DNA from: Siphlonurus alternatus
Taxonomy: Eukaryota > Arthropoda > Insecta > Ephemeroptera > Siphlonuridae
Assembly: GCA_949825025.1 (NCBI GenBank)
Contig: OX463788.1
Coordinates: 32,366,878 to 32,430,877, forward strand
DNA: 64,000 nucleotides
Direction of reading: 5' to 3'
The notes under the pieces were generated by a model that worked only from the letters and a program-made list of their open reading frames with translations, ran no database searches and was not told where the DNA came from. Position numbers and translations under genes: made by a program. This document shows positions 29,498-62,300 of this stretch, piece by piece. Each line of letters begins with the position of its first letter. The first letter of the stretch is position 1.

Positions 29498-29828
29498 TTC
29501 CAATGTGCTTTTTCGGTCATCGATATAAAATGTATCATAAATTTAAGTAAAAGTGTCCAAATAAAAATACTGATGTCTGCCAGCTATAATAAGGAATTGC
29601 GGATCAGAACCTGTGGCACCTCCTAATTTCCGTGCTGCCTTGAGTATCATATAATTAAAGTAAAAGTATAGAATTCAGTGGTGGGCTCCAGTGGCTCAGG
29701 GAAAAGAGCAGCCAACCGGAAATTGGAAGGTCCCAGGTTCAATTGCTGGCAGGGACCACTATTTTCTTTCGAATACTTTTACTTGGATTTATATGACACA
29801 TATCGATGACGGAAAAAACACATTGAAA
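29498..29828. mobile_element. TTAA-flanked TIR element carrying a tRNA-like segment
   Basis: TIRs of about 55 bp (AATGTGCTTTTTCGGTCATC at left; the complement with TCGATGACGG at right) lie between TTAA motifs (29494-29497, 29829-29832). The interior holds the tRNA-like stretch at about 29686-29769. Confidence 0.65.
29686..29769 (+). other. tRNA-like sequence (A and B box), not a functional tRNA
   Basis: GTGGCTCAGGGAAAAGAGCA resembles a tRNA D arm and GGTCCCAGGTTCAATTGCTG a T arm. The acceptor pairing is poor, so this looks like a tRNA-derived remnant rather than a tRNA gene. Confidence 0.55.
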
Positions 29829-30458: not shown

Positions 30459-31167
30459 AGACTTTGCAGCATATGCATTGCAACTGGAATAAATTTAATT
30501 TACAGCTATAATATTATTATTAAGTATCTCTGCAAGCTATTATGCTACGTGTGATTCATATGAAATGAGATGGGTACGTCGGTTGATTTTACATAATTCT
30601 ACATTTTTTTTTTTTTTTTACCACCACCTCGTATTCTGAATTAATGTTGGACTTGACTAACTCCAGCATAAAGTAAAAAGGTGAATATAACAAAAAATAC
30701 TTTGTCACCATTCAGACGTGTGCATGATTATAAGAGCGAAGTAAAAACATATGCTTATATATATACTGTATATAAATATATATAAATATAAAAGACTATT
30801 AATAAATTCTTATATAGTTTTATTATATATATATAATTATATATATATTTATCCGTAAATACCAAGATAATACTAAAAAATCAAGACAGAAACGAATTAT
30901 TAATTTGAAGCATATCGGAGTGATGATAACTTATTAAGTAAATATTACTAATTACTCTTTTAAGTTACAAAAAAGCAACAAATCTCATCCGGCCATGCAA
31001 CAAGTAAGATTGAGCTTACATAACAATTATTTGTGTATAAGTGGCTACAGTAAATGTAAAAACTATTCTGATTATGTCAGCCCTCTCACTACTTTTCTTG
31101 TTCTCATATAATTAAAAATTTAATTGATTATACCAGCATAAATTATCGATCATTAAAAAAAAAAAAA

Positions 31168-32634
31168 ATGGCATTGTCAACCTTAAATCCATATTACCAC
31201 ATTTCTCACCCACCAGCTCAACCAAACCCAAGTCCACTTCTGGACGTGAACTACCTCTATTTTGCCCTAACATCCTGTCTGCAACAAATTCATCTGCTTA
31301 GATGTCAGTTCGCCACACTGACACCGAATCAGTCACCCCACCCAGCACACCCCAACCCTCCCCCACCTCCCCAAGCAACAAAACAAGTATCATCAACCAC
31401 ACCTATCCTATCTCGTATGCGTACGAAAAGTCCCTTAGACCGTATGCAGACTCAGAATCTTCAGCCCAACTCAGATCACGTGAGATACCCAGAGCTCAAA
31501 GAATATCTAGAATTCCTTGCTGGCATCATTCCTCCCCCCAACATTCCCGAGTCAGACATCACTTGCCAAATCATAGAAAAAACAGGAAATATTTTCGACG
31601 TTCCCAGTTCCGTCGTAAAAGCTCATGCAGTCGCTGCTGACATCAAGATGAATGCAGGCATAGCCAAGAAATTTAAAAATATATACGGCAACTTGGAACA
31701 CCTCAGAAACAAACAAAGATTCCCTGGTGATATCGCTACACTGCAAGTAGATGGTGAAACCATTCTGTACATAATCACCAAGTTTAAGTCCAACCATAAG
31801 TATTCCCAAAACCAAAATCAATTTTTGAAGAATTTCCTTAAAGGCCTGAATGGCCTTAAAAATCACTGCGTCAAAAATCAAATTAAAAGAATCGCAATCC
31901 CTCGTATCGGCTCAGGACTAGATGGACTCAATTGGAATTATGTCAAGAGCAAAATCGAAGCTATCTTCATCAACGTGGACATCCTTATTGAGGTCTACTC
32001 TCTGAAGCAGAGGAGAAGTCCTCGCCATATGGCGTCTTCAACAACATCCCAAGGTGACAACCAAACCCACCCCAAAACTTTCCTATCTGATCAACACACC
32101 TCCTTATCATCAAACGATGGTCTCATGCACCCTCCTCAAATCTCCCCTCCAAATTCCCAATTCCCTAAACCTTCTGCCCCTCCTCCTTCCCCCAAAACTC
32201 CACCCACTACTCTCCCCAATCCCTCTGCCCCACCCCCCTCCTTATCCCCCCCCACAATGGCCCACCCCACCCCCCAAATTGTCCATCAACCCTCATCTCC
32301 CCCTAAGTCCCATCCTCCCGTGCTCACCCGTCTCTGCACTTCGCAGACAACCACCCCCATTCGCCCCTCATGTGTCACAAATACAAATAGTCCCCATCCA
32401 ATGCCATCAGGCCCTCCCCGCCTCATCAAGGCTCCCTACTACTACAGGCTCAACATGCTCTCTGAAAGTTTCAAGTCCCCCTCCAGCTCTCTTCAGCATT
32501 TCCACTACCCCTCTACCCCCCATCTCCCCAAAGTTAACAACCCGCCTCAACATATAATCAGCTCGCCCAATCCGAGCCCGCATTTTCGCGCAACCCTCTC
32601 TGCTCCACCCCGTCCAAAGTTGACGAGGTGGTAG
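31168..32634 (+). CDS. LINE ORF1 protein with TARG1-like macro domain
   Basis: 488 residues. Residues 1-129 form a Pro/Ser-rich leader (run of prolines at 63-68). Residues about 130-279 form a macro domain of the TARG1/OARD1 type: GNIFDVPSSVVKAHAVAADI, MNAGIAKKF, GDIATLQVDG, LYIITKFKSNHK, NQIKRIAIPRIGSGLDGLNW, IEVYSL. In TARG1 a Lys and an Asp (K84, D125 in human) remove ADP-ribose from glutamate; the equivalents here are Lys205 (IITK) and Asp252 (GLD). Residues 280-488 are a low-complexity Pro-rich tail with no zinc knuckle or coiled coil seen. Known LINE ORF1s usually carry RRM, zinc-knuckle or esterase modules, so a macro domain is unusual. Whether it hydrolyses ADP-ribose or binds RNA is not shown by the sequence. 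Confidence 0.9.
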   Translation: MALSTLNPYYHISHPPAQPNPSPLLDVNYLYFALTSCLQQIHLLRCQFATLTPNQSPHPAHPNPPPPPQATKQVSSTTPILSRMRTKSPLDRMQTQNLQPNSDHVRYPELKEYLEFLAGIIPPPNIPESDITCQIIEKTGNIFDVPSSVVKAHAVAADIKMNAGIAKKFKNIYGNLEHLRNKQRFPGDIATLQVDGETILYIITKFKSNHKYSQNQNQFLKNFLKGLNGLKNHCVKNQIKRIAIPRIGSGLDGLNWNYVKSKIEAIFINVDILIEVYSLKQRRSPRHMASSTTSQGDNQTHPKTFLSDQHTSLSSNDGLMHPPQISPPNSQFPKPSAPPPSPKTPPTTLPNPSAPPPSLSPPTMAHPTPQIVHQPSSPPKSHPPVLTRLCTSQTTTPIRPSCVTNTNSPHPMPSGPPRLIKAPYYYRLNMLSESFKSPSSSLQHFHYPSTPHLPKVNNPPQHIISSPNPSPHFRATLSAPPRPKLTRW

Positions 32635-35459
32635 TCTCAAACTCACCACTAAGGCTAAATATTCTCTTATGGAATGTGGAAGGCCTGAAAAAGCTAATAC
32701 CTTTAATCTCAGACAATATTCTTGAGAACCGAGATATTATTGTATTCACAGAGACCTTCTTACTTGAATCACTTGACATAAATGGCTACTACTCCTTCCA
32801 CAACCTTGCTTTCAAATGGCAGAGAGGGAGACCGTTTGGAGGCATCTCATGCTTCATAAACCCAAAACATGGTCCAATTTTAAATTTCTTAAAACTTAAA
32901 GATTTTATCATCATCAAAACTAAATTTTTTACAGTCATTGCCATGTACCTTAATCCATATTTTACAGTTCTCGAACTAATGGAGGTAGTACTATATGCAA
33001 TAAGCCTCACAGAAAATGATGCTAATGTAATTTTCACGGGCGATTTTAACTGTAGAATTGATCTTTCAAATGTCCCGAAACATCTACGAAACAAGACAGA
33101 TATTCTATTAGACATTTTAAATTCAAATGGCTACTTACTTTCTAATAGCCCCCTAGAAAAAACTTTTGTAAACGCAAATGGTTCAAGTACAATCGACCTG
33201 CTTTTTTATAAACCTAAAAATTTTATATTAATAAAACATGTCATTATTTCTGAGACAAACTCGTCACTGTTAAAGAGTCATCTACCCGGTGAAATTATTT
33301 TAAAATTTACCCCTAGCAATCCTCCCAATAAAAAACTTTTTTACAGATCAAATTATTCAAACAAAATTGATATTAGAAATTATAATGACCAAATTTATAC
33401 TTATGGTGATACCATAATTACTCATATCAATAATAAAGATGTAAATAGTCTAAATACTTTAATTACTAATGTCATTCTACATTCTACTATTGCAAAGAAA
33501 AATAATAAAAGAGTATCTAAACCCTGGTTTAATAGCGAATGTTATCTATCAAGGCAAGATCTTCTATCAAAATTTCATGCCAGCAAATTATATTTATTCA
33601 AAAACCCAAATTTGCATGAGCAATTTATTCAGGCAAGAAGCTGTTATAAGGCTTTATTGAAGCAGAAAGAATTAGAATTTAAAATTAAATCGGAAGATAA
33701 AATGATTAAAGACGCAGAGCTAGAACCATACACATATCTTAGGAAAGATAGACCACCAACTAAGTCATGCCCAATTAACATAGACAAATGGGAAAACCAT
33801 TTTACAAATATCTTAAATACAAATAAATTACAATCCGACCAAACTCTCAATCTTTTATCATTAACAAGAGACTATAATTGTAACTCAAATTATATTCCTC
33901 TTAATGAATTTGAAGTCTATAATTGTATGCAAAGCCTAAAAAACAATAAAGCTTCGGGCCCAGATTTTATTACGAATGAACATTTGAAGCTAGTAAGCAA
34001 GTCGTTAACCCCAACAATCACCAATATGTTTAACCTCTGTATTGAAACGGCTACAATTCCGGAATTGTGGCGGATCGCCTACCTAATGGTATTATACAAA
34101 GGGAAGGGTAACATTATGTCACCCGACTCATACAGAGGTATTATCCATGGTGATACCATGTACAAACTCTTCTCGAGATTAATTGCAAACAGGCTTTTTG
34201 ATTCCACCCACTATCTTATTCCAAAAGAGCAATACGGCTTTATGCCAGGACGTTCCACAATACAAGCTGTATCCACAGTATATAATCAAATTAAACTAGC
34301 ATTGGAGAAGCCAAAGGGTCATTTATATATTGCTTTTGTAGACTTCAGAAAAGCTTTTGATTCGGTCAATAGGAATTTGCTCATTGAAAAGCTGAAGTCA
34401 TTTAAAGTAATTCCTTCTGAAATTTTGAATATCTTAGCTGTTATTCTAAATATCAATTATGTATGTGTTCAAGATCGCTTATCATGTTCTAGTAATATTA
34501 TTCAATCTAACGGAGTTTTGCAAGGAGACCCGAGCAGCTCTCTTCTTTTCAATCTTTTTACTGCAGATATAACTGAGATTACAAAAGATATAAACTGTGA
34601 AAATGAAAATGATCAAGTCGTACTAAATTTATATGCAGATGATCTTGCTATTATTTCAAAGAGCAAAGTGAAGCTACAAAAAGCGCTAAATAATCTATCC
34701 ATCTGGGCCAAAACAAATGGTCTAGAAATTAACACAGAGAAAACCAAGGTTGTTAAGTTTAGAAGAGGCGGACCGTTATGCAAAAACGATGAAATTTATT
34801 GTGACGGTCAAAAGATTGAATTTCTAAATTCATTTAAATATCTTGGCATAATACTTCAAATGACAGGGCTTTCTTTTTCTAAACATATAACAGAAAGATG
34901 TAAGAACGCTATCACTGTTATGTACACTATCTCAGGGCTGTCTGGTCTATCCGTCAAAACAGGGCTCAAACTATTCAATTTAAAAGTCGCCCCTGTGGCT
35001 ACTTATGGTATTGAAATTGTATGGCCTCATTTATCTGTATCCGATTTTGATAAATTAGAATCAGTAAAAGCCATGTTTGTTAAAAGATTACTGTGTCTGT
35101 CAAAATTTACCGAAACTAGACTGGCCTATAAACTGATAGATTCCAATTATTTTATTACAGAAATCAAAGAAATGTTTAAACTTCCAACGACAGATCAATA
35201 TTCCAATTTTATAGCTGTCAGGTCGAATCAAAAAGCTCAGGATATTAATCCTGAGTTTTACAGCACTGATGCTATGACATGTAAATATTGGTGTCTGCCC
35301 CAATTGGATAGATCCAATGTTAGAAATGTTTTAACTCGCCAGGCTGTTCACGGCTTCCACTATCTAATTTGTAAATCTTCTGGTTATCATAAAGCTGAAC
35401 AATCTTCCCACGAGAAAATAAGAGTGAAAGCTCACAACAAATTCACTCGCACATATTGA
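32628..35459 (+). CDS. LINE ORF2: endonuclease and reverse transcriptase
   Basis: About 943 codons as read. The APE-type endonuclease domain spans residues about 9-220 (LLWNVEGL, FTETFL, FTGDFNCRID, STIDLLFY; the usual SDH motif reads KSHLPG). The reverse transcriptase spans about 430-760: NKASGPDFI, YRGIIHGDTMYKLFS, EQYGFMPGRST, FVDFRKAFDSVN, NGVLQGDPSSSLLFNLF, LYADDLAI (catalytic YADD), GLEINTEKTKV, FKYLGIIL. No RNase H is seen. There is no ATG before the endonuclease; the frame is open upstream and overlaps ORF1's end (stop 32632-32634) in the -1 frame, so initiation is unusual. Codons after 35406 belong to the inserted element at 35407; the real C-terminus resumes at 38662 and 39897. Confidence 0.9.
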   Translation: MVVSNSPLRLNILLWNVEGLKKLIPLISDNILENRDIIVFTETFLLESLDINGYYSFHNLAFKWQRGRPFGGISCFINPKHGPILNFLKLKDFIIIKTKFFTVIAMYLNPYFTVLELMEVVLYAISLTENDANVIFTGDFNCRIDLSNVPKHLRNKTDILLDILNSNGYLLSNSPLEKTFVNANGSSTIDLLFYKPKNFILIKHVIISETNSSLLKSHLPGEIILKFTPSNPPNKKLFYRSNYSNKIDIRNYNDQIYTYGDTIITHINNKDVNSLNTLITNVILHSTIAKKNNKRVSKPWFNSECYLSRQDLLSKFHASKLYLFKNPNLHEQFIQARSCYKALLKQKELEFKIKSEDKMIKDAELEPYTYLRKDRPPTKSCPINIDKWENHFTNILNTNKLQSDQTLNLLSLTRDYNCNSNYIPLNEFEVYNCMQSLKNNKASGPDFITNEHLKLVSKSLTPTITNMFNLCIETATIPELWRIAYLMVLYKGKGNIMSPDSYRGIIHGDTMYKLFSRLIANRLFDSTHYLIPKEQYGFMPGRSTIQAVSTVYNQIKLALEKPKGHLYIAFVDFRKAFDSVNRNLLIEKLKSFKVIPSEILNILAVILNINYVCVQDRLSCSSNIIQSNGVLQGDPSSSLLFNLFTADITEITKDINCENENDQVVLNLYADDLAIISKSKVKLQKALNNLSIWAKTNGLEINTEKTKVVKFRRGGPLCKNDEIYCDGQKIEFLNSFKYLGIILQMTGLSFSKHITERCKNAITVMYTISGLSGLSVKTGLKLFNLKVAPVATYGIEIVWPHLSVSDFDKLESVKAMFVKRLLCLSKFTETRLAYKLIDSNYFITEIKEMFKLPTTDQYSNFIAVRSNQKAQDINPEFYSTDAMTCKYWCLPQLDRSNVRNVLTRQAVHGFHYLICKSSGYHKAEQSSHEKIRVKAHNKFTRTY

Positions 35460-35925
35460 CTCCAATTAACCTAAATTTCGCCCCTTTTTGGAGTCAATAT
35501 GCGCGAGCGAATTAACGTGTATTGATGCACTTTGGCGATGTTTGGTACTTTATATTGACGCATTTTCACGTATATTGATGAATATTGACGAGTATTGACG
35601 TGAATGCCTGCCGAAATACTTCGCTCGACTTCACGCACTTTCAGGTATATTGGCTCGCGCATATTGACTCCAATTCACCTAAATTTCGCCCCTTTTTAGA
35701 GTCAATATGCGCAAGTGAATTAACGTGTATTGATGCACTTTGGCGATGTTTGGTACTTTATATTGACGCATTTTCACGTATTTTGATTAGTATTGACGTA
35801 AATGCCTGCCGAAATACTTCGCTCGACTTCATGCACTTTCAGGTATATTGGCTCGCGCATATTGACTCCAATTCACCTAAATTTCGCCCCTTTTCTGAGT
35901 CAATATGCGCGAGTGAATTTGATAT
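35444..35925. repeat. Tandem repeat, about 200-bp unit, 2.4 copies
   Basis: TATTGACTCCAATTMACCTA and the following TTTCGCCCCTTTT recur at about 35453, 35664 and 35865, with TATATTGACGCATTTTCACG and GCCGAAATACTTCGCTCGAC between them. It lies within the foldback element. Confidence 0.85.
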
Positions 35926-36049
35926 CATATATTGGCACATTTTCATGTAATTTGATTAATATTAACAAATATTGACGTAAATGCCTGCCACCAAAATACT
36001 TCGCTCGAATTCACACACTTTCAGGTATACTGGCTCGCACATTTTGACG

Positions 36050-36440
36050 CCTTTTCATGAACTTTCACACTTTCATTGATTAATTTTTTTCCTAAAGTCC
36101 ATTCATTCAAATTCACTCATTTTGACGCTTTTTCAGGAACTTTCACGCTTTTATCAACCATAATTTTTTTACAAAGTCCAGTCATTCAAATTCACTCATT
36201 TTGACGCTTTTTCACGAACTTTCACGCTTTTATCAACCATAATTTTTTACAATGTCCAGTCATTCAAATTCACTCATTTTGACGCTTTTTCATGAACTTT
36301 CACACTTTTATCAACCATTATTTTTTACAAAGTTCAGTCCTTCAAATTCACTCATTTTGACGCTTTTTCATGAACTTTCACGCTTTTATCAACCATATTA
36401 TTTTACAAATTCCAGTCATTCAAATTTAATATTTTTCAAA
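36050..36440. repeat. Tandem repeat, about 78-bp unit (left arm)
   Basis: About five copies of TCATTCAAATTCACTCATTT, then TGACGCTTTTTCATGAACTT and TTATCAACCAT. The complement resembles the unit repeated at 37700-38220. Confidence 0.85.
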
Positions 36441-37699
36441 CCTTTTCACGAAATTTCATACATTTAACAAGTAATTTTTTCACAAAGTCTATACATGCAA
36501 AATTCATTCATTCCCACGAATTTTCACACCATCATTTACCAAATTTTTACACATGGTCTCATGCATTTTTCGTCGCAGGCTAGCTCACCAAACCATTGGA
36601 AGTGAATGCAGTCCCATGGCCTCAGACCCCATGGATACCTGAAATGTACGAAAAATCCACAAAGAAACGCGCGCAAATTTTTACGTACAGTAATAAAGAT
36701 TGTTCTCATTTGTCAAACATCGAAAACAAAATAAAAACAATAATTTTTACAAACAGAAATATAGGCCGGTATACATGCAGATATACAGCTAGTATAAAAT
36801 GAGAGGCTTTTATAAAAAAAAAACTTACTATATAGGCTGACTATAATATATAGCAGTATAAGGTTTTCACTACTTTCCATAATTAATGATTCCTTTGAAT
36901 AATTTAACTATTAAAGGAATTATTTTTATACTTCGTCATAATTAAATAAATTAATAAGAACTGTTTTTACTTATCTGATAGAACTTCTCGTCGTGGCTTA
37001 ATCTTCGATATTTTATGCGACTCCAATTAAATCTGACATTTTGAAAACTCGACCGGCAAAAATGCAACATTAAATTTTCTCTTTTTACATCATAAAAAGT
37101 GCGAAAAAATGGCAAATATTAACACTGGACAAACGAATGGTAACCTAACTTCATTGTAATTAACTATTTAATGTTCAGGAATAAGTAAAACTTCACTTAA
37201 ACACCTCATAAATCACCATACACACACGAGGAGCTTTCTATAACCTCTCTGCGTCAGCCATCTTGTGTTACTACCAACCGCCAAGTCACATGACTTCCGG
37301 TCATGTGACCAGATTTGTAGAACATTTTTTTCATGAAGTCCCCTCATGCATATTCACGCATTTTCACACTTTTCCACGCACTTTCACCCATTTGTCGACC
37401 AACATTTTTCATTAAGTCCCTTCATGCATATCCACGCATTTTCACACTTTTTCACGCACTTTCACCCATTTGTTGACCTTTTTTTTTTAATAAAGACCAC
37501 TTATGTATTTTCACGCATTTTCACACATTTTTACGCACTTCGACCATTTGTCGACTAATTTTTTTCCTAAGTCCCCTCACATGAATAAAATTTTTTCACG
37601 CCTTGTTCCATGACGTCACTTGCTGGTCATGGGACGTCAAATTTCCTACTGAGAGATGCTGAAAATATGTTAAAATACATTAATATGCACTAAAGGATG

Positions 37700-38220
37700 T
37701 TGTTAAAAAAAATTGTCGAACAAATAGTTCAAAGTGCGTGAAAATGTGTGAAAATGTGTGAAAATGCGTGAAAAAACATTAGGGGTCTTTACTAAAAAAA
37801 AAAAATGGTCAACAAATGGGTGAAAGTGCGTCAAAATATGTCAAAATGTGTCAATTTGCATGAGGGGACTTTATAAAAAAAAAGGTCAGCAAATTGGTGA
37901 AAATGCGTCAAAATATGTCAAAATGTGTCAATTTGCATGAGGGGACTTTATAAAAAAAAATGGTCAACAAATTGGTGAAAATGCGTCAAAATATGTCAAA
38001 ATGTGCCAATTTGCATGAGGGGACTTTATGAAAAATAATGGTCAGCAAATTGGTGAAAATGCGTCAAAATATGTCAAAATGTGTCAATTTGCATGAGGGG
38101 ACTTTATGAAAAAAAATGGTCAACAAATTGGTGAAAATGCGTCAAAATATGTCAAAATGTGCCAATTTGCATGAGGGGACTTTCTGAAAAAAAATGGTCA
38201 GCAAATTGGTGAATGTGCAT
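37700..38220. repeat. 78-bp tandem repeat (right arm, opposite sense)
   Basis: About six copies of GTGAAAATGCGTCAAAATAT, TGTCAAAATGTGTCAATTTG and CATGAGGGGACTTTATGAAA. The copies differ by few bases, so amplification is recent. Confidence 0.88.
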
Positions 38221-38661
38221 GAAAAAGTTTCAAAGTGAGTGAACGTACTTTGCATCAAACTGGCTGAAAGTGCGTCAGTATACATGAACTGACTTTATAA
38301 AAAATGTTGGATCATAATTGGATGAAACTGCGTGAAAATTCATGAAAATGGGCGAGTGGAATCAACTCAATTTGCATCAATAGAGGTGAAGTTGATACTA
38401 AATTAAAAATACGTCAATTTATGTGAAAATGCGTGGAGTTGCTCTAGTCAACTATGTGAATATTAATCAGTATATGTCAATATGGATGGGCGAAATTGCT
38501 TGAAATACACTTATTTTGTTAAATTATTAAAAATTTGTTAAAATGCGTGAATGACGCATCAATCTGCATGAGAGAGTCGTCAATCGGCTTCAACATGTGG
38601 GAAAATGTGTGAATTTTTCACTCGTATTTACAATTTATTCGCATTTATTTTCTCGTGGGTT

Positions 38662-44337: not shown

Positions 44338-45002
44338 TAATTATATGCTACATGATAAAAGAAATGTAAATACAGCAGACAGCACCGATATTATTGCAGA
44401 AAGAGCTCTAGTGCACAAATAAAGAGCTCTAGCTAGCTGGCATTTGCGGATACTATATTTTGCACTTTTTTTCTTTTTCATTTTTTTTCAGCAATTTACA
44501 TTCTAAATTATGGTGTAACTCTTCTGGAAAATGATCTGAACATACTTTTGCATATATTTAATGTCAAATTTGTCTCGTCTGACACATAACTTGAGCCATT
44601 GGTCACAGTATTTCTTTTCCTTAGGAAAACCGTAAAATTAACTTATATAATGATGAAGCTATTATACTTTGCTACACTTTATTCCCATCAGTCGAGTTTC
44701 TACAAGTAAGTACGGCACACCTCACCATATTTATTACATAAATTTATATTAAAATGAATAAAGAAATGATAAAGTACAAATTTTAACTATTATGTACTCT
44801 AATTTCACTTTAAGAAACGAATAAAATATAGTATTATAAATTGCGAATTGTATAAGTTTGAACTGCAGCGCAAAAATCTCGTCTCTCATGACGTCATCAG
44901 AACTCGTTCGTTCATCACGCCAAGCGCGCATCGTAAAACGAAGATGCTTTATGCGCAGTAGTTGGGAAGCGGCTACCTTATGTAGAGTTATTTTGGTGTT
45001 AA

Positions 45003-47097
45003 CCGATACTATCAGCTCTCGCGGTAGAATTTGGAAACAGAGAGGCTGACAAGCGCGCCATCTCTAGGTGATAAAAGGACTGAACGTAACATCGTAAAAC
45101 AATGTTAACTCCGGGTTGCGAGATCCGAAGTTCGATGGACGATTTACATTATTTTTTATTGCTAGACAACAGCTCAAATCACCGCGAAATGAAAAATATT
45201 CTCACATACCTTATTAAATTTCCAGTCTTCTACATGTGTTCTGGATACTCCAAGGTACAAATTTCACTGCCAAATAATTTACCGAAATAGCTTGTGTATT
45301 TGCTGGATTGCACCTATATGCATCACCCACTTATCTATGCTGTATTTAATTTCTGGCGTGATCTAAAAGGACAAAAAGCTCCTTATCGTTAATGGTAATT
45401 AAGATTGAAGCTAAAACAAAAAAAAAATGCACAATCAAGCCAATTAATTGAGCAAATGGAAGGTAATTAATTGACGTACGTGTTCACGAAAACTTCACAA
45501 CATAAACATGTGAGCGGAAGGCTGGCGGCAGCGAGCGAGCACTGCGAGCAGCCGGAGCAGCTAGCGCAGCAGAAGAGAGGGGAGGTCGGGGGAGGTAGAG
45601 GAGGGAGAGAGGCGGGAAATGTTCTACAGCTGCATGATATTTTGTAACATTTATCAAATTTTATTTGCGTATTCTTAACTGCAGCATAACAAAATAACCC
45701 TTATAGACAAGCTCTGTTGAATTTGTTTGAATATTAACAAAGTTCAATGACTTTATGTGTTTGTATTAAATTTGAAGTCTTGTAAATATTTATGTAATTA
45801 TAGTAATAAAATTAAAACCATTTTTCATTGAAACAAATTTTTTTACTACATCGATCATGATCCCGCTCGTTAATTCATTTTGATGCCTTTCATAAAATCG
45901 ATCGAAGTAACTAAAAGATGCACACTATATTAAGGTCGATTTTCCTACCGGTTGCCATGATAAACTAGCATTATATAATATATTATGGTGAATGGAATTT
46001 TTAAAGTCTTTTTCAATTAAAGTTATTTTTCATTTAACTGTCACTGTTCACTGTCAATTTCATTAAATGAAAAATAACTTTAATTGAAAAAGACTTTAAA
46101 AATTCCATTCACCATAATATATTATATAATGCTAGTTTATCATGGCAACCGGTAGGAAAATCGACCTTAATATAGTGTGCATCTTTTAGTTACTTCGATC
46201 GATTTTATGAAAGGCATCAAAATGAATTAACGAGCGGGATCATGATCGATGTAGTAAAAAAATTTGTTTCAATGAAAAATGGTTTTAATTTTATTACTAT
46301 AATTACATAAATATTTACAAGACTTCAAATTTAATACAAACACATAAAGTCATTGAACTTTGTTAATATTCAAACAAATTCAACAGAGCTTGTCTATAAG
46401 GGTTATTTTGTTATGCTGCAGTTAAGAATACGCAAATAAAATTTGATAAATGTTACAAAATATCATGCAGCTGTAGAACATTTCCCGCCTCTCTCCCTCC
46501 TCTACCTCCCCCGACCTCCCCTCTCTTCTGCTGCGCTAGCTGCTCCGGCTGCTCGCAGTGCTCGCTCGCTGCCGCCAGCCTTCCGCTCACATGTTTATGT
46601 TGTGAAGTTTTCGTGAACACGTACGTCAATTAATTACCTTCCATTTGCTCAATTAATTGGCTTGATTGTGCATTTTTTTTTTGTTTTAGCTTCAATCTTA
46701 ATTACCATTAACGATAAGGAGCTTTTTGTCCTTTTAGATCACGCCAGAAATTAAATACAGCATAGATAAGTGGGTGATGCATATAGGTGCAATCCTGCAA
46801 ATACACAAGCTATTTCGGTAAATTATTTGGCAGTGAAATTTGTACCTTGGAGTATCCAGAACACATGTAGAAGACTGGAAATTTAATAAGGTATGTGAGA
46901 ATATTTTTCATTTCGCGGTGATTTGAGCTGTTGTCTAGCAATAAAAAATAATGTAAATCGTCCATCGAACTTCGGATCTCGCAACCCGGAGTTAACATTG
47001 TTTTACGATGTTACGTTCAGTCCTTTTATCACCTAGAGATGGCGCGCTTGTCAGCCTCTCTGTTTCCAAAATCTACCGCGAGAGCTGATAGTATCGG
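45003..47097. mobile_element. 2.1-kb near-perfect palindromic TTAA element
   Basis: The arms are 45003-46037 and 46063-47097, mirror-symmetric about 46050 with a 25-nt loop and no net indel. Mismatches are rare (for example near 45316 and 45033). TTAA is duplicated at 44999-45002 and 47098-47101. The ends are CCGATACTATCAGCTCTCGC and complement. It interrupts the right TIR of the 20.7-kb insertion. The same 62-residue frame appears on both strands because of the symmetry and has no known motif. Confidence 0.9.
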
Positions 47098-47441
47098 TTA
47101 ACACTCTTATCTCCAGTTTGGAACCCTTCTTGGGAATCCTTCTATACATTATCCTTGGTTTACATGTTAATCAAAGGGGATTACGTCGATCAGCTGTTCG
47201 GCGTTATCTCTACCTTAAGTAAATACTACTAAATTCTCTTTAGAATCATAAAAAGGCAACAAATCTCATCCGGCCGTGCAACAAGATTGAGCTTACAAAA
47301 CAATTATTTGTGTATAAGTGGCTTCAGTAAATATAAGAACTTTTCTGATAATGTCAACCCTCTCACTACTTTTCTTGTTCTCATATAATTAAAAATTTAA
47401 TTGATTATACCAGCATTTATTATAGATCATTAAAAAAAAAA

Positions 47442-49289
47442 AATGGCATTGTCAACTTTAAATCCATATTACCACATTTCCCACCCACCAGCTCAACCAA
47501 TCCCAAGTCCACTTCTGGACGTGAACTACCTCTAGTTTGCCCTAGCATCCTGTCTGCAGCAAATACATCTGCTTAGATGTCAGTTCGCCACACTGACATC
47601 GAATCAGTCACCCCACCCAGCGCACCCCAACCCTCCCCCACCTCCCCAAGCAACAAAACAACTATCATCAAACACACCTATCCCATCTCGTATGCACACG
47701 AAAAGTCCCTCCGACCGTATGCAGACTCAGAATCTTCAGCCCAACTCAGATCACTGGAGACACCCAGAACTCAAGGAATATCTAGAATTCCTTGCTGGTA
47801 TCATTCCTCCCCCCAACATTCCCGAGTCAGTCATCACTTGTCAAATTATGGAAAAAACAGAAAATATTTTCGACGTTCCCAGTTCCGTCGTAAAAGCTCA
47901 TGCAGTCGCTGCTGACCTCAAGATGAATGCACGCATTGCCAAGAAATTTAAATATATCTACGGCAACTTGGAACACCTCAGAAACAAACAAGGATTCCCT
48001 GGTGATATCGCTACACTGCAAGTAGATGGTGAAACCATTTTGTACATAATTACAAAGTTTAAGTCCAACCATAAGTATTATATACCAAAACAAAAATCAA
48101 TTTTTGAAGAATTTCCTTAAAGGTCTGAATGGCCTTAAAAATCACTGCGTCAAAAATGAAATTAAAAGAATTGCAATCCCTCGTATCGGCTCAGGCCTAG
48201 ATGGACTCAATTGGAATTATGTCAATTAAGAACAAAATCGAATCCATCTTCATCAACGTGGACATCCTTATTGAGGTCTACTCTCTGCAGCAGAGCAGAC
48301 CCTTGTAAAAAGGAATTATACTTATTACAAATTAATAAAGTATAATTCCTATGCTTAATTCGTATAATTTAGTATAATTTCTGAATGATTAATATACTAA
48401 ATTACAGATCAATTATACTAGTTTTTATTTTATTATACTAAATTATAGAAAAGCATTTTTCCAAATTAAAAAAATAAGTGACAAATTGAACCATATATGG
48501 TTGCCTCGAAATGATTTAAAGAGGTATACTATTTATATAATTTAGTATAATAAAATTAAACTAGTATAATTAATCATGTAATTTAGTATATTAATCATTC
48601 AGAAATTATACTAAATTAATACGAATTAAGCATACGAATTATACTTTATTAATTTGTAATAAGTATAATTCCTTTTTACAAGGGGAAGAAGTCCTCGCCA
48701 CGTACGTGGCGTTTTCAACATCATCTGAAGGTGACAACCAAACACACCCCAAAACTTTCCTATCTGATCATCATATCTCCTTATCATCAAACGATGGTCT
48801 CATGCACCCTCCTCAAATCTCCCCTCCAAATTCCCAAAACCTTCTGCCCCTCCTTCCCCCAAAACTCCCCCCACTACTCTCCCCAATCCCTCTGCCCCAC
48901 CCCCTCCTTATCCCCACCCACAATGGCCCATCCCACCCCCCAAATTGTCCATCCACCCTCATCTCCCCCTAAATCCCATCCTAACGTGCTCACCCGTCTC
49001 TGCACGTCGCAGTCAACCACCCCCATTCGTCCCAAATACAAACAGTTCCCATCCAATGCCATCAGGCCCTCCCCGCCTTATCAAGGCTCCCTACTACTAC
49101 AGGCTCAACATGCTCTCTGAAAGTTCTAAGTCCCCCTCCAGCTCTCTTCAGCATTTCCACTACCCCTCTCCCCCCCATCTCCCCAAACTTAACAACCCGC
49201 CTCAACATATAACCAGCTCAACCAATCCGAGCCCGCATTTTCGCGTAACCCTCTATGCTCCACCCCGTCCAAAGTTGACAAGGTGGTAG
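47442..49289 (+). pseudogene. LINE copy 2 ORF1, macro-domain pseudogene
   Basis: Begins MALSTL like copy 1, then meets an in-frame TAG near 47533. The macro region is readable at 47692-48120 (GNIFDVPSS-type start altered, ITKFKSNHK retained) before frameshifts, and is then interrupted at 48300-48684. The Pro-rich tail resumes at 48706-49289. The end still overlaps the ORF2 frame as in copy 1 (GGTGGTAGTCTC). Confidence 0.8.
48300..48684. mobile_element. 385-bp palindromic MITE in LINE ORF1, 2-bp duplication GA
   Basis: The ends are CCCTTGTAAAAAGGAATTAT and its complement; the arms run through TTAATAAAGTATAATTC and are palindromic almost throughout. GA lies at 48298-48299 and 48685-48686. The matching uninterrupted site is in copy 1 at about 32010 (AAGCAGAGGAGAAGTCCTCG). 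Confidence 0.85.
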
Positions 49290-50528
49290 TCTCAAACTCA
49301 CCACTAAGACTAAATATTCTCTTATGGAATGTGGAATGCCTGAAAAAGCTAATACCGTTAATCTCAGACAATATTCTTCAAAACCGAGATCTTATTGTAT
49401 TTACAGAGACTTTTTTACTTGAATCATTTGACATAAATGGCTACTTCTCCTTCCACAATTTTGCTTTCAATAACAGAGAAGGAGACCGTTTGGAGGCATA
49501 TCATGTTTCATAAACCCAAAGCATGGTCCAATTTTAAATTTCTTAAGGCTTAAAGATTTTATTATCATCAAAACTAAATAATAATAATAATAATTGTTTA
49601 TTGGGTTAAAAATACATAATTTAGAGGGAAACATAATAATAAATAAATACCCATAACCCAATTATTTTATTTTATTATTTTAAATATTTTACAGTCATTG
49701 CCATGTACCTTAATTAATCAATATTTTACAGTTCTTGAACTAATGGAGGTAGTACTATATGCAATAAGTCTCACAGAAAATGATACTAATGTAATTTTCA
49801 CGGGTGATTTTAATTGTAGAATTGACCTTTCAAATGTCCCGAAACATTTACGAAACAAGACAGATATTCTATTAGAAATTTTAAATTCAAATGGCTATTT
49901 ATTTTCTAATAGCCCTCTAGAAAAAACTTTTGTAAACGCGAATGGGTCAAGTACAATCGACCTGCTTTTTTATAAACCTAAGAATTTCATATTCATAAAG
50001 CATGTTATTATTTCTGAGACAAACTCGTCAATGTTAAAGAGTCATCTACCCGGTAAAATTATTTTAAAACTTACCCCTAACAATCCTCCCAATGAAAATT
50101 TTTTTTACAGATCAAATTATTCAAACAAAATTGATATTAGAAATTATATTGACCAAATTTATACTCATGGTGATACTATAATTACACATATCAATAATAA
50201 AGATGTAAATAGTCTAAATACTTTGATTACTAATGTTATTCTTCATTCTACTATTGCAAAGAAAAACAATAAAAGAGTATCTAAACCCTGGTTTGATAGC
50301 GAATGTTATCTATCAAGGCAAGATCTTCTATCAAAATTTCATGCCAGCATATTATATTTATTCAAAAGCCCAAATTTGCATGAGCAATTCATTCAGGCAA
50401 GAAGTTGTTTTAAGGCTTTATTGAAACAGAAAGAATTAGAATTTAAAATTAAATCCGAAGGTAAAATGATTAAAGACCCAGAGCTAGAACCATATACATA
50501 TCTTAGGAAAGATAGACCACCAATTAAA
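49283..50528 (+). pseudogene. LINE copy 2 ORF2 fragment (endonuclease part)
   Basis: Endonuclease motifs remain (LLWNVECL, FTETFL, FTGDFNCRID, STIDLLFY). They are split by a short AT-rich insert at about 49578-49688 and a frameshift near 49490. The sequence stops before the RT at the foldback element starting near 50536. Confidence 0.82.
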
Positions 50529-50535
50529 TCGGTAT

Positions 50536-52630
50536 CACGTCAAAACAACGAAAACAAAAATCACGAAAGCATTTTCAACGACTGACTTTATCCCGAAAAC
50601 AATTACATCGAAAACAAATATAAACGAAATCATTTACCACGAAATTAAATTAACACGAAACAAAATAATAACGAGAACAAAAATCACGAAAACAATTTGT
50701 TCGAAAGTAATTTGACCGAAATTAAAAAGGACGAAAGTAAATTAGAACGAAATTATTTTCATACGAATTCAAAAAGCACGAAAACAATTTGACCGAAAGT
50801 TATTTGATCGAAAACATTTAAGACGAATACAAAAACCACGAAAACAATTTGACTGAAAAGTTATTTGAACGAAAACATTTAAGACGAATCAAAAAATAAC
50901 GAAAACAATTTGACCGAAAGTTATTTGAACGAAAACATTTAAGACGAATCAAAAAAGAACGAAAACAATTTGACCGACAGTTATTTGAACGAAAACATTT
51001 AAAACGAATGGAAAAATCACGAATACAATTTGAACGAACGCTATTGGACCGAAATAAAAAACACCGATGAAGAAAAATATTAATAAAAAATTATAACAAC
51101 ATTTTTAAACCAAAAAAATTTTTTAAATTAAAACGAATGCAATAAAGAAGCTATACAGACTGCATGAGCCAGAAATGGTGTTCCGAACCCATGCTAAAAT
51201 TTGGGCAGGTTAACTTTGAGGTAGAAATTTGAAATTTGGCATACGCATATAAAGCCATGCAAGGGTTCCAGATTCTTTTGACATGTATATACGTGTTAAA
51301 TGATTTTTAAAATTAATATTTCCTACCGTTTTAGGGTTTGATTCACGATTTGCATTTCTTCCTTATGGGATTTCCATGTTAAATTAAGTTGATTGAAAAA
51401 TTTTAGCCGATTTGCACCAAAATTAGTTTTTAAGGTTTTCAGAGCACTTTGAATTTAATGGTGTAATTTAAAAAGTGGTGAAAACAATCCCTAATGAGAT
51501 AATGACCCTTACTACATGAAAAAATGATGCTATCAAAATTTTGATTATGCCATTGAAACGGACTTATTTTTTTACCCCATAGTTTGAATTTTTTGAATCC
51601 GAGCAAGTTAACGATTTAATTTTAAGGGGTGAGGAAACACCATTAAATACAGCGTGCTCTGAAAACCTTAAAAACTAATTTTGGTGCAAATCGGCTAAAT
51701 TTTTTTTATCAACTTAATTTAACATGGAAATCCCATAAGAAAGAAATGCAAATCGTGAATCAACCCCTAAAACGGTAGGAAATATTAATTTTAAAAATTG
51801 TTTAACACGTATATACATGTCAAAAGAATCTGGAACCCTTGGCTTTACGTATGCCAAATTTCAAATTTCTACCTCAAAGTTAACCTGCCCAAATTTTAGC
51901 ATGGGTTCGGAACACCATTTCTGGCTCATGCAGTCTGTATATAGCTTCTTTATTGCATTCGTTTTAATTTGAAATTTTTTTTTTTTGGTTTAAAAATGTT
52001 GTTATAATTTTTTATTAATATTTTTCTTCATCGGTGTTTTATATTTCGGTCCAATAGCGTTCGTTCAAATTGTGTTCGTGATTTTCCCATTCGTTTTAAA
52101 TGTTTTAATTAATTCGTTCAAATAACTGTCGGTCAAATTGTTTTCGTTCTTTTTTGATTCGTCTTAAATGTTTTCGTTCAAATAACTTTCGGTCAAATTG
52201 TTTTCGTTATTTTTTGATTCGTCATAAATGTTTTCGTTCAAATAACTTTCGGTCAAATTGTTTTCGTTATTTTTTTATTCGTCTAAAATGTTTTCGTTCA
52301 AATAAATTTCGGCCAAATTGTTTTCGTGAATTTATTATTTCGTTTTAAATGGTTTCGTTCTATATTACTTTCGTTGTTTTCCAATTCGTTCAAATAACTA
52401 TCGGCCAAATGGTTGTCGTGATTATTGAATTCGGCTAAAATGTTTTCGCTGTAAATGCTTTCGTGTTTTTTAAGTTTCGTTATAAATGCATTCGCACATT
52501 TTCCATTTTGGTTAATTATATTTTCGTTTAAAATGTTTTCGTGTTAAATTACTTTCGTCCTTTTTGTTTTCGGTGTAATGCCTTTCGTATAAATTGTTTT
52601 CGTTCTTTTATTTTTCGTTCTTTTGACGTA
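50536..52630. mobile_element. 2.1-kb foldback element with CGAAAAC-repeat arms
   Basis: ACGTCAAAACAACGAAAAC at the left and GTTCTTTTGACGT at the right are inverted. The arms carry tandem units of about 50-60 bp (AATTTGACCGAAAGTTATTT, GAACGAAAACATTTAAGACG) in mirror orientation. The inner third (51140-51940) is a palindrome: ATGAGCCAGAAATGGTGTTC is repeated inverted around 51925. No transposase. A target duplication was not resolved. Confidence 0.75.
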
Positions 52631-59300: not shown

Positions 59301-62300
59301 CGAATGCTTGAGAAGAAAGAAGCAGCACTACAGGTAACACATCAGAATATATCCTTACTGAAAACTGTTGAATGTTTTTTATTTTTTTATTACTGTTTTA
59401 TTATTAAGTGAAACGAAAGTGAACGTATGTCGCCACCTCCATTATGTTATGTAATTGTTTCACTACTCGCACTTATGGCATAGTCCCTTTTGTTATATAA
59501 TGAGCCTGCTGCATGCCTTGTTTTTAGTAGCGGAATTGAAAGAGGGGGTGCAGAAATGCAAGTGTGAATTTTATGCGAATTTTTTTAGCACTGCATCTTT
59601 GTGTAAATGCAGTTTGAAAAGATGCATTTCACCAGGAGGCCTACCACCTTTGACGTCATCGAAATGTCAGGTTCGGCTCACAATAGGTATGCATACCTGT
59701 ACACACCTGCATAACAGGTAGCCAATCAAAAACAATCTAGCTATAGTGACAAAAATTCAAAATTTCAAATGCCTAGCCTAGCGAAGTGGATGAGTTTTAC
59801 AACTTAAAAAATGCACATTATTCCATTATACACGTACTGTAAAAACACATTGGGAGATAAGTAATATTACAAACGTACCTTTCATTTTCATCATATTTAA
59901 ATAATTAAAATTGTTTCTCAAATAGTTTAATTTAAATGAAGAGAAGAAGCAATATCAAATCCTGCCATTACATTCTGATTAAATGATTGGCGCCGTCATG
60001 CAGCAATCAGCCAAAGAAAATGTGTAAATTTATCATACTGGACTCCTTCCGTATCTGCTGATTATCTATTGAATTATTTTATTAAACCTAAAACTGAGTC
60101 TCTTTTCTTATCTACGAAGATAGTAGGATGCCGTAGGATTCAATAATTAACTTTATTAAGACCCTTGAACCATAATTTTCAATGTCTTTTCAACCCCCTG
60201 TTTGCTGCTGCTAAAACCAGTAATGGATGGATTGAAAACTACATACAGTTTTAATTTCAACTTATCTGGCACGGGCGTATGTAGTCCAGTGGTAGAGCAC
60301 TCGCCTTTCAAGCAAGAGGTTTTAGGTTCGAATCCCCCCTGGTACATTTTACAATTTTACATTTTTAGTAGCTAGAATATATTTTTAATTCAGACGGGGT
60401 AAAAAAGTTTTGTATATAATTTTTTCTTATTAATTTTTCTATCATTGTATGAAACGTTTTTTTTTTTTTTTTTGCAAAGTTATTTATTTTTTAAGTGCAT
60501 ATGAATAAATATGAAAAAGTGTGACTTATAATTTGTCACCTCAGAATGCAAGTCGCGTAAGTACAAAAAAAATTTTATGCGGTTTTGAACCTTATCTCTA
60601 TATAACTTAAAAGTGAAAGTTCCATCAAAATTTTTTGCACTTACACGACTTGCATTCTGAGGCGATGAATTGTATAATATAGTTATATTGTAAGAAAAAA
60701 TAAGATTATTTTACCCTGTCTGAATTAAAAATATGAAATAAACTTCTTCGTGCTACTAAAAATTTAAAATGAACCAAGGGGGATTCAAACCTAAAACCTC
60801 TTGCATGAAAGGCGGGCGCTCTTCCACTGTACCAAATATGTCCATGCCAAAAAATTTTGAATTTAAACTGTATTTAGTTTTCAATCCTTCCATTACTGGT
60901 TTTAGCAGCAGCAAACAGGGGGTTGAAAAGACATTGAAAAATTGATTCAAGGGTCTTAATAAAGTTGAGTATTGAATCCTACGGCATCGTACTATCTTTG
61001 TAGATAAGAAAAAAGACTCAGTTTTAGGTTTAATAAAATAATTCAATAGATAATCAGCAGATACGGAAGGAGTTCAGTGTGATAAATTTACACATTTTCT
61101 TTGGCTGATTGCTGCATGACGGCGCCAATCATTTAAACAGAAAGTGATGGCAGGATTTGATATTGCTTCTTCTCTTCATTTAAATTAAACTATTTGAGAA
61201 ACAATTTTAATTATTTAAATATGATGAAAATGAAAGGTACATTTGTAATATTACTTATCTCCCAATCAGTGTTGCCAGGTCCAAAACACCGAGACCGCGG
61301 GCCGCGGGCAGAAAAACCGCAGAAAACCGCCGCCAGATGGCAAAAAAATGCAAGAAAAACCTCAGTGTGATTGGTCTAAAAAAAGCCGCGAAATTCAAAT
61401 TTTGTACGTTAAATTTGAATTTCGCGCTCTTTTTGCTGAAAATATTTGAATTTCGCGGTCTTTTTGCTGAAAAATTTGAATTTCGCGGTCTTTTTTTGCT
61501 GAAAACCGTGAAAACTCTGCGGGTTTCCAAAATCTTCCCGCAGAGAAAAGCTGAAAAAACGCTAGGTTTAGCGGGAAACCGCAGAGTCTGGCAACACTGC
61601 TCCCAATGTGTTTTTACAGTATGTGTATCATGGAATAATGTGCATTTTTTAAGTTGTAAAACTCATCCACTTCGCTAGGCTAGGCATTTGAAATTTTGAA
61701 TTTTTGTCACTATAGCTAGATTGTTTTTGATTGGCTACCTGTTATGCAGGTGCATACTTATGGTGAGCCGAACCTGAAATTTCGATGGCATCAAAGGTGG
61801 TAGGCGATGGGCTCCAGATGAAATGCATCTTTTCAAACTGCATTTACACAAAGATGCAGTGCTAAAAAAAATTGCATAAAATTTACACCTGCATTTCTGC
61901 ACCCCCTCTTTCGATTCTGCTACTAAAAACAAGGCTTGCAGCAGGCTCATTGCTGAACCTGAAACTCGCTCGTTAAAATTACAATTTCTAGAAATTAAAG
62001 ACAACTTAAACATCAATTGTTTTCCCAGCTAAACTGAAATATTTTGTGCAATTGTACTGTATTTGGTTATTAATTTTAATATTAATGAGCACTGCATTGT
62101 CTAAAGGGCTCATTTAAAAATATATTAATGTTTGTTTATCATTCATCAAATCTGTGAATACTGTAAATACATGTCATATGTTTACTTGTAGTTTCTATTT
62201 CTGTTTTGACCAATGTTTTTTTCTATAGAAACTAGTGAGTGCTGCAGAGAGAGCTGTAGCTCATCACGAGGAGGACTCCCAACTGTCCCTCAGTCAAGTG

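Follow-up and report, generated by a model that had tools for sequence, protein, structure and literature searches.

A LINE of Siphlonurus alternatus whose first open reading frame carries a TARG1-type macrodomain

Introduction

What use might a retrotransposon have for a domain related to an enzyme that removes ADP-ribose? The question is raised by a stretch of 64,000 nucleotides of the insect Siphlonurus alternatus (Ephemeroptera, Siphlonuridae; assembly GCA_949825025.1, contig OX463788.1, positions 32,366,878 to 32,430,877 of the forward strand), hereafter called the window, to which all positions below refer. It contains a long interspersed nuclear element (LINE) whose first open reading frame (ORF1) encodes a domain resembling human TARG1, also named OARD1 or C6orf130. 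An initial annotation had described a TARG1-like macrodomain between Pro-rich arms, followed by a second frame (ORF2) for an endonuclease and a reverse transcriptase, and had pointed to a second, decayed copy of the same layout. Here we examine what the domain is, whether it belongs to the element, where it may have come from and what it might do.

Results and Discussion

A TARG1-like macrodomain in ORF1 of a LINE

With the full ORF1 as query, residues 135-279 matched human OARD1/C6orf130 at E 1.4e-27, and with the macrodomain alone as query the value was 1.1e-28; the identity of the two domains is 41%. The Pfam Macro model gave 20.1 bits (E 6e-4), slightly below its cut-off of 22 bits, and the models of the bacterial antitoxin DarG gave E values of 2.5e-12 (NCBIfam NF048014, 46.7 bits, against an equivalog cut-off of 250) and 9e-14 (PADLOC). 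In PHROGs the domain matched phrog_335 (E 5e-17), annotated as a phosphatase, in keeping with phage macrodomains. A comparison of the predicted structure with OARD1, as the initial annotation had suggested, yielded a macrodomain fold with TARG1 closest. Judged by the OARD1, Macro and DarG-model matches, the domain belongs to the ALC1-like class, nearest to TARG1. Sequence, predicted fold and the tree described below all support the original identification, and that this is a LINE whose ORF1 is of TARG1 type can hardly be doubted. Compared with human TARG1 (PDB 4j5s), the LINE domain lies inside a much-extended ORF1 protein with Pro-rich arms and is more basic. The DarG macrodomain (PDB 5m31, 5m3i) shares about 21% identity with the LINE domain, which scores far below the equivalog cut-off; DarG is without the aspartate of the catalytic dyad (PMC9411070), and its partner is a toxin, whereas the macrodomain here sits in a LINE.

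The coding capacity downstream is that of a non-long-terminal-repeat retrotransposon. ORF2 matched RVT_1 at E 9e-37, and its endonuclease part matched PF14529 above the cut-off (E 3e-8) and PF03372 below it (E 6e-4). Among sequences of the PDB, ORF2 had 13 matches, headed by 8c8j, named only as an RNA-directed DNA polymerase (E 3.7e-18), then by four LINE-1 ORF2 proteins and next R2-type proteins, a number too small for placement in a clade. Judged by these matches, the element is a two-ORF LINE with an endonuclease of the apurinic/apyrimidinic (APE) type. The endonuclease and reverse transcriptase do follow ORF1 directly, as first described, with the qualification that ORF2 lies in the -1 frame relative to ORF1 and overlaps it. 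Its open stretch starts at 32538 and lacks an in-frame ATG ahead of the endonuclease; the overlap with ORF1 (32538-32634) is 97 bases long and free of ATG. A GTG at 32628, which both copies retain, precedes the ORF1 stop by four bases. Since the ORF2 frame overlaps ORF1 without an ATG before the endonuclease, ORF2 is probably translated via a frameshift or by reinitiation near this GTG. At its other end, the native C-terminus of ORF2 may have been lost from the intact copy (copy 1), because the stop codon falls within a tandem array that begins at 35446. APE-type endonucleases usually carry a Ser-Asp-His motif; at this position (33273-33281) both copies read Lys-Ser-His.

ORF1 itself is a single uninterrupted frame, as had been noted from the start, and the two arms beside its macrodomain are indeed Pro-rich (18% and 23% Pro). 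The N-terminal arm has a predicted helix at residues 27-49 (predicted local distance difference test of the block 53-71), which could be a candidate segment for self-association. The C-terminal arm gave no Pfam match up to E 10. We looked in particular for RRM, CCHC, transposase-22, PHD and esterase domains: Pfam gave no match to any of them in ORF1 up to E 1 or in the arms up to E 10, a result with which a very diverged RRM would be compatible, and a pattern scan of ORF1 for CCHC found none. A survey of 448 elements of the Jockey superfamily distinguished five types of ORF1, namely RRM/CCHC, transposase 22, PHD, esterase and unclassified (PMC4120745). By the Pfam and CCHC scans, our ORF1 would fall outside types I-IV of this scheme. 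The coordinates of the element are given in Table 1.

Table 1. Features of the element and of its second copy, in window coordinates
Feature	Position	Strand	Basis
Presumed 5' untranslated region, copy 1	30934..31167	+	likeness to copy 2 starts at 30934 (blastn, alignment)
ORF1, 488 aa, intact	31168..32634	+	open reading frame
ORF1 N-terminal arm, residues 1-129, Pro-rich	31168..31554	+	composition, secondary structure
TARG1/OARD1-like macrodomain, residues 130-281	31555..32010	+	sequence match, predicted fold, active-site alignment
ORF1 C-terminal arm, residues 282-488, Pro-rich, basic (isoelectric point 10.8)	32011..32631	+	composition
ORF2, APE-type endonuclease and reverse transcriptase	32628..35459	+	Pfam, PDB sequence matches
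Copy 2 (decayed): 5' region, disrupted ORF1 including the macrodomain, disrupted endonuclease part of ORF2; truncated thereafter	47215..50527	+	blastn, alignment
MITE-like insertion of about 390 bases with inverted ends, in ORF1 of copy 2 (approximate bounds)	48295..48682	.	alignment
A+T-rich insertion of about 100 bases, in ORF2 of copy 2 (approximate bounds)	49575..49680	.	blastn, alignment

Two diverged copies share the layout under purifying selection

The 64-kb window holds two copies of the element by blastn. The decayed copy described in the initial annotation is real: it aligns with copy 1 in three blocks of 91-94% identity (30934-32016 against 47215-48299 at 92.6%, 32014-32925 at 91.4% and 32921-33763 at 94.0%, the latter two also within 47215-50527), and its frames are broken. 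Besides the two insertions, it has indels and frameshifts; the compared stretches of its ORF1 and ORF2 contain one in-frame stop each, and it ends at the equivalent of 33763, where other repeats adjoin. The shared stretch begins about 234 bases 5' of ORF1, at one start point for both copies, and the flanks are unlike. A native 3' end is seen in neither copy, as copy 1 enters the tandem array at 35446 and the likeness of copy 2 stops at 50527.

Selection was assessed from the changes that separate copy 2 from copy 1, scored in the codons of the latter; gapped codons were dropped, and the probability under neutrality (P) allows for transition bias. The initial annotation had named a ratio of nonsynonymous to synonymous rates (dN/dS) below 1 across the macrodomain as a test, and between the two copies in the window this ratio was 0.29 (152 codons, 13 nonsynonymous and 11 synonymous changes, P 0.012). 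The two arms gave 0.40 and 0.41 (P 0.077 and 0.031), ORF1 as a whole 0.37 (479 codons, P 0.0008) and the compared part of ORF2 0.19 (373 codons, P 6e-6); for the 5' region, translated in a frame without meaning, P was 0.53. The actual constraint is probably stronger than measured, since one copy is dead and contributes neutral changes. We consider it very likely that the ORF1 macrodomain has a selected function. Because both copies, though diverged, show the macrodomain layout at a dN/dS below 1, the layout belongs to the element itself and not to a chance fusion, as had been argued at first. A recent chance fusion would require a single capture of an OARD1-like retrogene from the host, the two copies having then arisen by duplication of that one dead insertion. 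Such an event would fit the small number of copies examined and the lack of a native 3' end in both. It is at odds with the purifying selection seen in ORF1 and ORF2 when the copies are compared, with the single 5' point at which likeness stops between unlike flanks, and with the long branch and modest identity that separate the domain from human OARD1, and we regard it as highly improbable.

Several repeats surround or interrupt the copies. The inverted ends of the MITE-like insertion begin CCCTTGTAAAAAGG. The tandem arrays at the ORF2 end of copy 1 (35446-38264) have units of about 198 and about 78 bases with an inner rhythm of 10 bases; the later array is partly the reverse complement of the earlier one, and the arrangement is foldback-like. 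Just upstream of copy 2, a perfect inverted repeat (44996-47104) has arms of 1042 bases, 100% identical, around a spacer of 25 bases; this palindrome is either very young or an assembly artefact. Directly after the break of copy 2, arrays of 30/60-base units lie in an inverted, again foldback-like arrangement (50545-52630).

Origin of the domain

Relatives of the domain were collected from 13 matching phage records (six used), 2 plasmids, the best 80 of 131 matches from genome contigs and the best 80 of 144 from viral contigs. These 168 loci include some duplicated records (e.g., L007 and L011), and with the LINE and human sequences added they made 170 rows; removal of 25 rows whose cut stretch contained a stop, followed by thinning at 75% identity, reduced these to 90. 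In the resulting tree the LINE domain paired with human OARD1 (ultrafast bootstrap 99, SH-aLRT 85), with one animal sequence only for it to pair with; the LINE branch is long (1.92), and the tree program flags it as unsure. At TARG1 position 80, the LINE and human domains have Tyr in common, where 87 of the 88 others have Asn. The simplest reading of these sequences is that the macrodomain was captured from an animal TARG1 (OARD1) gene. No ORF2 match was present in the 168 relative loci, of which short flanks were covered. When ORF1 and ORF2 were queried against viral contigs, there was one pattern match for each, and tblastn returned no relative.

Active site and a possible role in the ribonucleoprotein

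Lys205 and Asp252 of ORF1 align with Lys84 and Asp125 of TARG1, exactly as first stated. Catalysis by TARG1 has been proposed to rely on these two residues (PMC9411070, PMC7050489; the review prints Glu125). Equivalents of both are present in 88/88 prokaryotic and viral relatives, although the scans that yielded most relatives demanded the letters GLD and left Lys84 free, so the conservation of Gly123-Leu124-Asp125 is partly by construction. Copy 1 also retains Gly43, Ile44 and Gly123 of TARG1 as Gly164, Ile165 and Gly250; in TARG1, G43E, I44E and G123E each abolish ADP-ribose binding (PMC5928194). The kept dyad is in line with a role in counter-defence, in which an active hydrolase would strip host ADP-ribose, of the kind made by poly(ADP-ribose) polymerases (PARPs), from the LINE ribonucleoprotein, from RNA ends or from complementary DNA, as is thought for viral macrodomains. 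TARG1 removes ADP-ribose from Asp/Glu, from O-acetyl-ADP-ribose and from nucleic-acid ends (PMC7050489), and a protein of the PARP family, ZAP/PARP13, restricts human L1 (PMC4441479). We consider counter-defence a somewhat unlikely main role, and the pocket changes described below bear on it as well.

Other features of the domain point to RNA. Its net charge is +11, against a mean of 1.6 (standard deviation 4.8) for relatives of which 3/89 are as high, in stretches unequal in length and flank, and its isoelectric point is the highest of the 90 compared. TARG1 binds RNA outside its pocket with no clear sequence preference, and poly(ADP-ribose) (PAR) competes with the RNA (PMC5928194). PARP1 and PARP2 accumulate at the L1 nick, and L1 activity is lower when they are lost (review, PMC8535693). 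Because of this competition, the basic domain, the lack of RRM and CCHC matches and the PARPs at the L1 nick, we infer that ORF1 encodes a ribonucleoprotein component which would hold RNA and meet PAR at the nick. The ORF1 protein would coat the LINE RNA via two basic regions, the macrodomain and the Pro-rich C-terminal arm, which would replace RRMs or zinc knuckles. The endonuclease would nick the target, and host PARPs would produce ADP-ribose there; the pocket would bind this ADP-ribose, which could displace the RNA, and the particle would be held at the nick. Less surely, the Lys/Asp dyad might also strip ADP-ribose from proteins or nucleic-acid ends. An RNA-binding plan without RRM would have a parallel, since esterase-carrying (type IV) ORF1s such as that of ZfL2-1 likewise have an enzyme domain and no RRM and may contact RNA by basic peptide segments (PMC3905857), although their SGNH esterase with coiled coil is of an unrelated fold. 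A TARG1-lineage macrodomain ORF1 that binds RNA and then the ADP-ribose of the nick is our best explanation overall, which we advance tentatively. We are similarly cautious, and a shade more so, in suggesting that binding of RNA plus ADP-ribose is the main job of the macrodomain. It is more speculative, and unlikely as it stands, that the element represents a new class of LINE ORF1 in which the macrodomain stands in for the RRM or zinc knuckle and swaps RNA for PAR at a PARP-marked nick, with ADP-ribose as the signal for hand-over to target-primed reverse transcription.

Several points weigh against the proposed binding of RNA and then ADP-ribose. Compared with TARG1, the pocket region of ORF1 departs at four positions (D20N, C33A, S35A and G41N), of which Asp20 and Ser35 are presumably ADP-ribose contacts. 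Cys33, Ser35 and Gly41 are kept in 87, 79 and 87 of the 88 prokaryotic and viral relatives, respectively; the equivalent of Asp20 is Asp in 68 and Asn in 18. These substitutions may mean that ADP-ribose binding is weak or absent. There is also an insertion of six residues just after the catalytic lysine loop, and the decayed copy has Arg at the Gly43 equivalent. Furthermore, constraint on the macrodomain does not clearly exceed that on the arms, the charge comparison has the inequality of stretches mentioned above, and the data on PARPs at the L1 nick are mammalian and may not carry over (PMC8535693). Since the dyad, Gly43, Ile44 and Gly123 are kept while Asp20, Cys33, Ser35 and Gly41 are changed, hydrolysis of ADP-ribose by the ORF1 macrodomain is plausible, and we see it as evenly balanced. 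The loss of the Asp20, Ser35 and Gly41 equivalents, together with the basic character of the domain and the independence of TARG1 RNA binding from the pocket (PMC5928194), would also suit a module for binding only, no longer catalytic or specific for ADP-ribose, that acts as a general RNA-binding domain or in assembly of the ORF1 protein. Such a module sits poorly with the retention in copy 1 of the dyad and of all three residues that TARG1 needs for ADP-ribose binding (PMC5928194), and we consider it unlikely. Under the explanation that we prefer, in which RNA binding is followed by binding of ADP-ribose at the nick, the element could tie LINE mobility directly to ADP-ribose signalling, and the connection between PARPs and LINE mobility would become testable through single residues of ORF1.

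Relation to known elements

We know of no retrotransposon that encodes its own ADP-ribose-handling protein. The remark in the initial annotation that no LINE clade with such an ORF1 had been described agrees with searches of the open-licence literature, a scope outside which Repbase, most subscription papers and preprints lie: no macrodomain LINE ORF1 appeared among the papers listed, and the word macro is absent from the available text of the paper on ORF1 types of the Jockey superfamily (PMC4120745). Four further papers proved irrelevant to a macrodomain ORF1, namely PMC5434184 (the MACROD2 gene with an L1 insertion), PMC8195603 (bacterial conflict systems), PMC12831279 and PMC9709290. The retention of a non-standard enzyme domain is in itself shared with insect LINEs that have captured an RNA helicase of viral type, in TRAS ORF2 and Jockey ORF1 (PMC5563155); the helicase is of viral origin, whereas the macrodomain here is of the animal-gene type. 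The macrodomain fold likewise occurs in RNA-based replicators, as in alphavirus nsP3 and rubella p150. The macrodomain would enlarge the reticulate set of LINE ORF1s by one more domain type, and would parallel the macrodomains of animal RNA viruses with one of host-gene type.

Other features of the window

Eight further open frames of the window gave no Pfam match above the cut-off, and ARAGORN found no tRNA in the window. A marginal Rfam match to tRNA at 60275-60346 (30.2 bits, gathering score 29), unseen by ARAGORN, is perhaps a tRNA-derived repeat, because it sits within an inverted repeat. Upstream of the element, at 29680-29780, a stretch resembling a tRNA promoter was noted by eye, with words similar to box A and box B such as those of a short interspersed nuclear element (SINE).
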